This document shows, piece after piece, positions 25,628 to 32,001 of a stretch of DNA of 64,000 nt. Numbering within the stretch: the first letter of the stretch is position 1; every line of letters starts with the position of its first letter. The notes below the pieces were generated by a model. The model was not told the origin of the DNA, did no database searches, and saw only the letters and a program-made list of their open reading frames with translations. The stretch lies in the NCBI RefSeq assembly GCF_004136315.1, contig NZ_CP029562.1, positions 1,054,001 to 1,118,000 of the forward strand. The letters run 5' to 3'. The stretch comes from Mesorhizobium sp. Pch-S. GTDB lineage: Bacteria > Pseudomonadota > Alphaproteobacteria > Rhizobiales > Rhizobiaceae. Both the position numbers and the translations under genes were made by a program.

Positions 25628-26215
25628 TCAGCTGTTCCTGCCGACGAGGCGCCAGACCAGCGGAAGTGCCGCCGACGCCAAGCCGAGCTTCAGCAGGTCG
25701 CCGAGCAGGAATGGGGTCAGCCCCCAGGCCAGAACCGGCTTGTCCCAGCCGACAACCGCGCCGAGCCAGAGCAGGCCCGGCAGATAGATCATGACGGTGC
25801 CGGCCAGCATCGCCAGCGCGGTGAGCGCAACGCTGCGATCCCAGCCGCGTTCGGCCAGCCAGCCGCAGACGGCGGCAGCAGGAAGGTAGCCCAGCAGATA
25901 ACCGCCGGTCGGCCCCATCATGTAGGCAAGACCGATGCCCTTCTCCGGCGTGCCGGCAAAGACAGGCAAACCCGCAGCGCCTTCGGCGAGATAGAGCAGG
26001 ACGGTGGCAAGCCCGAGCCGCCAGCCGAGTGCTGCGCCGATGGCCAGCACCGCGAAGGTCTGCATGGTCAGCGGCACGGGATAGAAGGGAAGCTGGACCT
26101 TCGCCGATGCCCAAAGCAGGAGCGAACCGGCAAAGACGACGGCGGCCTTTTGCAACAGCGACGTCTCGCCGGCGAAACGCTGCAGCAATGTGGAGATACC
26201 AGCCTGGGAAGCCAT
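25628..26215 (-). CDS. bioY: Biotin transporter BioY (ECF S component)
   Basis: The substrate-binding membrane subunit of a biotin importer. The 195-residue protein has six hydrophobic segments and the family features 'VQLPFYPVPLTMQTFAVLAIGA' (given here in part: 'PVPLTMQTFAVL') and 'YMMGPTGGYLLGYLPAA'. No bioM or bioN genes are next to it, which is common for solo BioY. It is the last minus-strand gene after the pxpA-accB-accC-pxpB-pxpC-permease series, 72 bases after the permease. A biotin importer fits an operon that encodes a biotin carrier protein. Confidence 0.92.
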   Translation of the reverse strand: MASQAGISTLLQRFAGETSLLQKAAVVFAGSLLLWASAKVQLPFYPVPLTMQTFAVLAIGAALGWRLGLATVLLYLAEGAAGLPVFAGTPEKGIGLAYMMGPTGGYLLGYLPAAAVCGWLAERGWDRSVALTALAMLAGTVMIYLPGLLWLGAVVGWDKPVLAWGLTPFLLGDLLKLGLASAALPLVWRLVGRNS

Positions 26216-26287
26216 GGAACCTGTCCTTTCTCGCTTTTGAGTTCTCGGTAAAGCCTCGCGCCCCTGGCAGGGCGCGAGGTCTGGATG

Positions 26288-27642
26288 TCATGCGGCGGTG
26301 AGGAACCACTCGCGCTTGGCGCTGTTCAGGCCCAGCGCATAGATGCAGAAACCGACAACCGCGGTGGCCGGTGCCGATAGTTCGGTGTAGGCGCCACCCC
26401 ACAGGTGCAGCGCGATGCCGACGGCTGCTGCCGCGAACCAGGCGATGATGCCGAGTGGATTGAAGGCCGGCACGTGGCTCGAACGGTATTCGATCGTGCT
26501 GCCGACAAGCTGCTCGTAGCGGCTGGAGAAGATATGGGCCATGGCGACCGCCACCCAGGCGACGACGAAGATGCCCTGATAGGCGAGTGCCTGCAGCAGA
26601 TAGCTGAACACGTCGATCAGCATCAGCAGATAGACGATCGCGCCGACCACGATGGCCCAGCCGATGCGGCCGAAGGGCGGCTTGCCGAACAGCTGCACCA
26701 GCGCCTCAAGGTTGACCGCGGCGAGGTAATAGTTCGCCGTGTTGATGCGGGTCTGCGTGACCCAGACGAAGAGCAGGCCGCCTATGCCCATGATCTTCAG
26801 AAGCGCCAGCAGCACCGAGACTTCGGTGACGGTGCCGAGATCCGGCACCGTGCCGACCATGAACATGCCGAACAGGCCGCTGACCAGGAACACCATGACA
26901 TAGAACGGCATGCCGAAGTTGAAATAGGCGTGATAGCCGGCATCTTCCTGGCGGCCGAAACGGGCGTAGTCGAAGGTGAACATCATCAGCACCCACACGC
27001 CCATGTAGTACACGAAGCAGGACAACCAGCCCAATGCCGGCTCGCCGCGGCCGGCCCGAGATTGAGCCACTTGTCGCTGTAGCCATACTGGCTGATCGCC
27101 AGCACCACCGCGAGCACGAGGCCCAGTATGTAGAACGGCAGCAGCACGCCGTTGAATTTGTCGAGCCAAGTCTGGATGCTGCCGAAGATCAGCGGCACCG
27201 AATAGAGCACGACGATCAGGGCAGCGATCGGATAGGAGATCGACGGGAAGATGTTGTTGATGCCGACCGCGATCACCGACCCCTCGAAGACGGCGTAGTA
27301 GATGGCGGTGGCGCAGAAGATCAATGTCGCGAGGCCTGCCCCGACATTGCCAAAGAGAACGCGTGAGAACAGGGCGACGGACAGCCCGGTCTTGATGGCA
27401 AACCTGCTCAGCACCGCATTGATGAGCCCATAGGCGACCACCGACAGCACCATGCCGATGATTGCGTTCCAGGTGCCGAAGCCAAGCGCCAGCGCGGCGC
27501 CGACCACGATGTAGAAGACGGCGCTGCAGACGGCCCACCATGCCATGGTCAAAGCCATCTTCGGCATGCGGGCATTGGGTGGTACGGCAATGTTCGAATA
27601 GTCCAGTGTGTCGGCTTCATCAGCCGCTAGTTTTCCAGCCAT
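26288..27642 (-). pseudogene. NCS1-family nucleobase/cation symporter, interrupted by a frameshift
   Basis: Two frames together make one permease. The N-terminal part (27642 down to about 27055) begins MAGKLAADEADTLDYSN and ends near 'YGYSDKWLNLG'. The C-terminal part resumes in another frame at about 'ALGWLSCFVYYMGVWVLMMF' and runs to 26288. The total length, 1355 bases, is one short of a multiple of three, so a single missing base in the GC-rich stretch around 27040-27060 explains the break. Combined, it has about 451 residues and some twelve helices, as expected for cytosine/purine/allantoin/hydantoin permeases of NCS1. It could be a genuine pseudogene or a sequencing error. It follows pxpC by about 95 bases. 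Confidence 0.85.
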
Positions 27643-30959: not shown

Positions 30960-31204
30960 GCGTCGATCTCTGCGATCGGCTGCCCCGCCATCACGGCATC
31001 GCCGTCATCGACGAGGAATTTGAGATTGGTGCCCGCGGCGCCGGCCGGGATCTCGTGGAACGATTTCATCACTTCGATGACGCCGAGGATGTCGGTCGCC
31101 GCCACCGCGTCGCCATCGTTCTTGAACACGTCGCTGTCGGGCGACGGCCGCCTGTAGAAGACGCCGGGCAAGGGTGAATTGAGTTCGGTTCTAGCCATGA
31201 TCAT
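30956..31204 (-). CDS. accB: Biotin carboxyl carrier protein, short form
   Basis: An 82-residue protein that is just a biotinyl-lipoyl domain. The biotinylation motif is 'EVMKSFHE', with Lys47 as attachment site. A 'SPLPGVFYRRPSPDSDVF' N-terminus and 'VDDGDAVMAGQPIAEID' C-terminus match carriers of the acyl/urea carboxylase type. The proline/alanine-rich N-terminal region of housekeeping AccB is absent. The start ATG at 31204 overlaps the pxpA stop; a second in-frame ATG is two codons on. It is the presumed partner of the adjacent biotin carboxylase. Confidence 0.92.
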   Translation of the reverse strand: MIMARTELNSPLPGVFYRRPSPDSDVFKNDGDAVAATDILGVIEVMKSFHEIPAGAAGTNLKFLVDDGDAVMAGQPIAEIDA

Positions 31205-32001
31205 CCCCTTGCCGTTGTTCTCAAATGACTTGTCAGTTCCGCAACCGGCCTGACCTTGACCCCGGCGGCATCGAGTGCCGCACGCATGGCCGTGGCGATT
31301 TCCAGGCTGCCAGGCGTGTCCGAGTGGAAGCAGATGGATTCGAAGGCGATGTCGATCTCGTCGCCCTCGACCGTGCGGACCTTGCCGGTCCGGCAGGCGT
31401 GCACCACCTTCTCGGCAACCTGGCGAGGGTCCAGGCGACCGGTGCGCCGCGTGAACACGATCGAGCCCGAGCGGTCGTAGTCGCGGTCGGCATAGAACTC
31501 GCGGATCACCGGGTGCCCGGCTTCCGTCGCCGCGCGATAGGTCTCGGACATTCCCATGCAGTAGATGAAGGCGTTGGGAGCGATCGTGCGCATGGTGCGG
31601 ACGAAGTTGCGCGACATCTCCTCGCTGGCGGCAAATTCCATGTAGAGCGCGCCGTGCGGTTTCACATGCTGCAGGGTGGCGCCGTAACGGCGGGCAAATT
31701 CGCGCAGCGCCCCGATCTGGTAGACGATGTCGTTGACCAGTTCCTCGCTGGTGCCGTTGATGCGGCGCCGACCAAACCCCTGCAGGTCGCGGAAACCCGG
31801 ATGCGCACCGACGCCGACGCCATGCTGGGTCGCCAGGCGAACGGTGGCGTCCATCAGATTGGGATCGCCGGCATGGAAGCCCGTGGCGATGTTGGCGGAG
31901 CTGATGAGCTTCATCAGGTCGGCGTCATCGATGTCGCCCAGGCGCCATTGGCCATAGCCTTCGCCCATGTCGCAATTGATGTCGACGGCCGCTGTCTGCA
32001 A
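31201..32001 (-). CDS. pxpA: PxpA / LamB-YcsF family protein (5-oxoprolinase subunit A)
   Basis: The lactam-binding, ring-opening subunit of PxpABC. The 266-residue protein has the hallmark 'VDINCDMGEGYGQW', 'SSANIATGFHAGDPNLM' and 'VGVGAHPGFRDLQGFGRR' blocks of the LamB/YcsF deacetylase-like fold. No ATG fits; a TTG at 32001 with GGGAGG five bases before it gives the normal family N-terminus. It is the first gene of the operon, divergent from a LysR gene. Known PxpA converts 5-oxoproline to glutamate together with PxpB and PxpC; here the extra biotin proteins leave the substrate open. Confidence 0.91.
   Translation of the reverse strand: MQTAAVDINCDMGEGYGQWRLGDIDDADLMKLISSANIATGFHAGDPNLMDATVRLATQHGVGVGAHPGFRDLQGFGRRRINGTSEELVNDIVYQIGALREFARRYGATLQHVKPHGALYMEFAASEEMSRNFVRTMRTIAPNAFIYCMGMSETYRAATEAGHPVIREFYADRDYDRSGSIVFTRRTGRLDPRQVAEKVVHACRTGKVRTVEGDEIDIAFESICFHSDTPGSLEIATAMRAALDAAGVKVRPVAELTSHLRTTARG

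Follow-up and report, generated by a model that had tools for sequence, protein, structure and literature searches.

A 64,000-nucleotide stretch of the Mesorhizobium sp. Pch-S genome (hereafter the window; positions 1,054,001 to 1,118,000 of NZ_CP029562.1, a single 6.62 Mb contig) contains five overlapping genes, which we consider reasonably likely to encode one catabolic system: a relative of urea carboxylase split into separate genes, in which a LamB/YcsF hydrolase replaces allophanate hydrolase, and which would carry out a biotin-dependent N-carboxylation of its substrate before ring opening. All five genes lie on the minus strand, in the order pxpA (LamB/YcsF hydrolase, 31201..32001), biotin carboxyl carrier protein (BCCP, 30956..31204), biotin carboxylase (BC, 29571..30959), a pxpB-like gene for carboxyltransferase subdomain C/D (28699..29574) and a pxpC-like gene for subdomain A/B (27738..28709). 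They overlap successively by 4, 4, 4 and 11 bases, in agreement with the 4–11 bases given in an initial annotation of this DNA. The likely start codon of pxpA is TTG, with GGGAGG a few bases upstream, as read from the sequence. The closest named relatives, judged by PxpB, are Mesorhizobium (about 96–98% identity).

Pfam or NCBIfam family assignments were obtained for all five core genes and for the downstream bioY. Two features of the biotin-dependent carboxylase class, intact BC active-site motifs and the biotinyl-lysine motif of BCCP, are present. BCCP (82 residues; NF005457, 119.6 bits against a cut-off of 87) carries the biotinylation motif EVMKSF with Lys47, and its Met-Lys pair is kept in 78 of 78 aligned rows. 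BC (NF009471, 749.6 bits against a cut-off of 686) has the motifs GDK, MIKA, GGGGRGI, HVEVQ, EVNTRIQVEH and RINAED, whose residues we take to be those of the active site, and which are kept in nearly all of 81 rows, conservative I/V/M changes aside. PxpC exceeds the cut-off of TIGR00724 (258.6 against 230.2 bits) and falls below that of the 5-oxoprolinase model NF045499, PxpC_5OPro (212.5 against 500 bits). PxpA, the sole PF03746 match of the genome (299 bits), passes the subfamily model NF003814 (298.7 bits, cut-off 226) and reached none of the three listed PxpA equivalog models.

The PxpB-like protein is assigned to the urea carboxylase type by model scores, alignment, tree and fold. It scores higher against the urea carboxylase model TIGR02712 than against the PxpB model TIGR00370 (113.5 versus 70.1 bits), and fails the 5-oxoprolinase equivalog cut-off of the latter (145.55 bits), against which Escherichia coli PxpB scores 355.6 bits. 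TIGR02712 describes a single chain, and its cut-off of 1303.85 is not reached by the products of the separate genes (BC 522, PxpC 231, PxpB 113.5 bits). The departure of PxpB from the usual GFxPGFxYL and PGGW motifs, already remarked on in the initial annotation, is real: the window protein has GFVAGLPFMY and AGGYQ, the latter matching the GGYQ of urea carboxylase. In the alignment, Lys173 falls in the column of KlUA Lys1605 (residue number obtained by counting), the residue proposed to act as catalytic base in urea carboxylase. This column holds Lys in 17 of 17 relatives (the K type) and 13 of 13 urea carboxylases, and Arg in 42 of 42 ordinary PxpBs (the R type; 40 ordinary loci, E. coli and L111). 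In the PxpB tree the window protein clusters with urea carboxylase (support 100/99), apart from ordinary PxpB, and urea carboxylase nests within the K type.

A search of 398 Pseudomonadota genomes with the window PxpB gave 17 matches at E < 1e-50, one per genome and the window included, the next match being at 1.2e-28. Within the stretches read around these K-type loci (14.6 to 20 kb each, and the window in full), a BC match was found in 15 of 17 and a BCCP match in 14 of 17, compared to 7 of 40 and 2 of 40 for ordinary pxpB loci of the same genomes. Both BC counts were made without the 40% query-coverage filter, and the seven ordinary loci are L089, L090, L101, L209, L217, L219 and L216, the last being a partial match at the edge of its stretch. 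The difference in BC linkage gives a Fisher p of 7.5e-7 (2.5e-7 without L216), uncorrected for kinship and with controls that were hand-picked for diversity, non-randomly, among the matches listed (two of them, L097 and L098, being shorter).

A scan of one genome per species across 84,980 species gave at least 588 loci, of which the best 80, nearly all alphaproteobacterial, were compared. All five genes occur in the window order within 6 kb in 74 of these 80 homologous loci, which places the gene order far from chance and bears out the co-occurrence of LamB-type, BCCP, AccC and PxpB/C genes that the initial annotation had suggested checking. Four of the other six loci are cut by contig ends (L112, L163, L171, L182), one has no BC between BCCP and pxpB (L183), and in one PxpB was not recovered (L166). 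PxpA accompanies 76 of the 80, and a LysR-type regulator of at least 40% identity is present in 68. The Lys and Tyr found in 79 of 79 proteins of this set are not usable as evidence, because the selection patterns contained the Lys and GGY motifs. In Haladaptatus and Thermomicrobium, parts of the system are present in other orders. The annotated Thermomicrobium stretch has bioY and no BC, and a single row of genes (L108:1-11373) comprises a three-subunit Mo-hydroxylase, a TorT-like ATP-binding cassette (ABC) transporter, BCCP, PxpB, PxpC, PxpA and BioY; named relatives of the Thermomicrobium protein occur in Sphaerobacter, Thermomicrobiales and Chloroflexota. Among 8,000 candidates scored there were 7,836 PxpB-related matches, a count that pools the K type with other types.

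The mechanism we propose follows from the order of events in urea carboxylase, where urea is carboxylated first and the hydrolase acts afterwards, and from the lactamase role reported for PxpA (PMC8453981). In all likelihood BC, with ATP and bicarbonate, would carboxylate the biotin on Lys47 of BCCP. By homology, and given the conserved Lys, PxpB and PxpC together would form the carboxyltransferase, with PxpB Lys173 as the base, and would pass CO2 to a nitrogen in the ring of the substrate, a cyclic amide, imide or ureide. The N-carboxylated ring, a weaker amide, might then be opened hydrolytically by PxpA, and the product would shed CO2. The dissociated biotin-dependent carboxylase/hydrolase envisaged in the initial annotation is supported by the conserved gene order, by the motifs of BC and BCCP being intact and by the grouping of PxpB with urea carboxylase instead of ordinary PxpB; carboxylation of a cyclic amide ahead of ring opening is still a proposal.

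Several observations weigh against this assignment. PxpC is closer to E. coli YbgK (168.7 bits) than to KlUC (153.4 bits), and is therefore not specially like urea carboxylase. The ordinary-type PxpB of L101 also scores below the TIGR00370 cut-off (130.8 bits), so that failing this cut-off is not a unique mark of the K type. The predicted local distance difference test score (pLDDT) of the PxpB model is below 50 at residues 177–191 and 193–203, directly past Lys173. BC linkage was considered as a mark unique to the K type and ruled out by the 7 of 40 R-type loci that carry BC in their stretch; Lys is therefore not the sole route to biotin linkage. L080 and L083 retain both Lys and PxpA, but the ~20 kb read there holds no BC or BCCP match, and BCCP matches elsewhere in their genomes reach only 35–36% identity. 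These two systems would need either to use a housekeeping carboxylase or to operate without biotin. Finally, the PxpA of K-type operons splits into two types, divided at 50% identity to window PxpA (56 rows of one and 34 of the other, 90 being labelled). When this label is mapped on a quickly built PxpB tree of 95 rows, it has to change twice, both changes being required by well-supported branches, and PxpA is therefore tied more loosely to the carboxylase. A constant carboxylase with an exchanged hydrolase fits one activation chemistry applied to several rings, PxpA identity alone being no proof of a change of substrate.

The same evidence bears on other readings of the operon. It could encode an ordinary PxpABC 5-oxoprolinase, with BC and BCCP as passengers or providing chemistry unneeded for ring opening. 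PxpA passes its subfamily cut-off, PxpC falls in the generic family, two of the 17 K-type loci have no BC or BCCP nearby, and no BC lies within 8 kb around the E. coli pxpABC genes. However, both PxpB and PxpC score below the 5-oxoprolinase equivalog cut-offs, PxpB clusters with urea carboxylase and BC is linked in 15 of 17 loci, and we regard this reading as improbable, though it is the foremost of the rivals. A split urea or guanidine carboxylase, supplying nitrogen from urea or guanidine, would account for the shared Lys and GGYQ and for the nesting of urea carboxylase within the K type, but is harder to reconcile with a PxpA gene in 76 of 80 loci, a urease in the genome and the lack of any allophanate hydrolase (TIGR02713) over cut-off in the genome, where the best score is 195.1 against 511 bits; we give it a small chance. 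On the presence of urease and the lack of an allophanate hydrolase over cut-off, urea was set aside as the substrate, which it is unlikely to be. The genome has a single PF02682 match, PxpB itself, and hence no separate urea carboxylase.

PDB entry 9yx5, entitled as a Mycobacterium smegmatis long chain acyl-CoA carboxylase complex with MSMEG_0435–MSMEG_0436 bound, raises another option, that the role of the PxpBC pair is to bind an acyl-CoA carboxylase and tune it, and not to carboxylate a catabolic substrate. The entry lists an alpha3 (BC-BCCP) subunit, and the PxpB in chain W is of the ordinary kind, with the R motif; contact of a PxpBC pair with a biotin carboxylase complex has therefore already been seen, for the R type, and makes the borrowing of a housekeeping carboxylase by L080 and L083 conceivable. 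According to a 2015 transcriptome study (PMC4617892), MSMEG_0435 and MSMEG_0436 are raised under nitrogen limitation. As the bound pair is of the R type, and the window operon brings a BC, a BCCP and a hydrolase of its own, with a regulator and transporters alongside, a tuning role seems very unlikely here. Least probable, to the point of being nearly negligible, is a second acetyl- or acyl-CoA carboxylase, which the NCBIfam names of BC and BCCP would suggest; the two adjacent transferase genes belong instead to the urea carboxylase family (PF02682, PF02626).

The disassembled urea carboxylase relative thus favoured differs from characterized systems in several respects. Urea carboxylase/urea amidolyase (TIGR02712; Kluyveromyces lactis 3va7, 5i8i) is one chain of ~1200 residues, whereas the window has four separate genes, and urea amidolyase uses allophanate hydrolase where the window has a LamB/YcsF hydrolase; the window system looks like an unfused urea-carboxylase-type enzyme with such a hydrolase. 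That the transferase of urea carboxylase has split homologues, which are frequently next to each other and had not been studied, was pointed out in 2011 (PMC3199775). The PxpABC 5-oxoprolinases (E. coli ybgJKL; Corynebacterium glutamicum pxpTABC, the latter from PMC13274462) share the PxpA, PxpB and PxpC families with the window, but their PxpB has Arg and GGW and belongs to another clade, and BCCP, like BC, is absent from the 8 kb surrounding the genes in E. coli. Also comparable are ordinary-type PxpBC pairs with BC nearby or bound (L089, L090, L101, L209, L217, L219, L111 and 9yx5), which nevertheless have R-type PxpB, fall, where tested, outside the clade of urea carboxylase and are in some cases fused as PxpBC. 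The R-type loci linked to BC make up a second biotin-linked group. Caprolactamase CapAB and HyuAB also open lactams in an ATP-dependent manner, with Pfam families that differ from those of the PxpABC-type core; the caprolactamase paper (PMC8453981) reports that CapA lacks a bicarbonate site resembling the one in biotin carboxylase. We recognised no description of a biotin-dependent PxpABC in the parts of the CC-licensed PMC text covered, and do not claim its absence from print.

A CapAB pair adjoins the operon across a LysR-type regulator gene (32287..33192, plus strand; PF00126 and PF03466) that is divergent from pxpA. The CapA/HyuA-like ATP-dependent lactamase subunit (33261..35390, minus strand; NF050156, 1240.7 bits) and the CapB/HyuB-like subunit (35350..37101, minus strand, the start being chosen in an open frame that reaches 37383; NF050157, 1091.8 bits) both exceed the NCBIfam caprolactamase cut-offs of 1000 each, and probably constitute another enzyme that opens rings, acting on a related substrate. 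In 16 of the 80 K-type loci there is a CapA homologue with an identity of at least 70%, on the upstream side in some loci and on the downstream side elsewhere. Beyond CapAB is an AraC-type gene on the opposite strand; a RidA-like (Endoribonuclease L-PSP) gene at 23061–23579 and a 588-residue open frame at 20907–22673, without a Pfam match, were also observed near the cluster and in the window, respectively.

Downstream of pxpC, on the same strand, are an NCS1-like permease gene (26288..27642, after a gap of 95 bases) and, 72 bases further on, bioY for the S component of a biotin importer (25628..26215; PF02632, 139.8 bits). Both were named in the initial annotation, but the permease is frameshifted and its NCS1 label weak (24–43 bits against a cut-off of 353). 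It occupies two open frames (26986–27642 and 26288–27541), which align to residues 38–238 (98.5%) and 237–488 (99.6%) of one intact frame in L070, the nearest relative, whose locus ends at a contig end. The frameshift may be an assembly error, since another BC-domain gene of the genome also matches in two adjoining, frame-split pieces; this gene, possibly a pyruvate carboxylase, lies outside the window at ~2.85 Mb (G000:C1:2849881-2850203). With the permease frameshifted in this genome, there is less reason to think that the operon brings its own substrate uptake, as had been suggested. As for biotin uptake of its own, bioY is indeed there, but it is one of three BioY matches, and the genome has bioB as well. 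BioY as the sole biotin source is thereby ruled out, and it is better viewed as an additional importer. Together, the LysR regulator and bioY may serve the five-gene system.

Among the 80 loci, with neighbours labelled from one Pfam-scanned representative per cluster, Peripla_BP_4 ABC genes were found at 27, SBP_bac_8 ABC genes at 28, BioY at 19, NCS1-like permeases at 4, CapA at 23 and the Mo-hydroxylase large subunit at 13. Mo-hydroxylase and Peripla_BP_4 ABC genes recur together in several alphaproteobacterial loci; the single Peripla_BP_4 protein checked passes a TorT model, and none of the four Mo-hydroxylases checked reached an NCBIfam cut-off. Cyclic nitrogen compounds are suggested as substrates by the neighbouring NCS1-like permease, CapAB and Mo-hydroxylases, but the transporters differ among loci and the neighbours single out no one substrate.

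We tentatively suggest, with rather less confidence than for the window system itself, that K-type operons represent a separate enzyme class, in which cyclic amides are activated by biotin-dependent N-carboxylation in place of phosphorylation and then opened by an exchangeable LamB/YcsF hydrolase, and from which urea carboxylase arose by gene fusion and replacement of the hydrolase. If the proposed activity is correct, a distinct, biotin-dependent means of opening stable rings would be found among the proteins that currently go under the names 5-oxoprolinase subunit and allophanate hydrolase subunit. Urea carboxylase would gain an unfused relative, and the mechanism of PxpABC would become directly testable through the biotin requirement of any PxpBC. 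A lactam or imide hydrolysis driven by CO2 and ATP would also be relevant to nylon precursors and to the degradation of nitrogen compounds.
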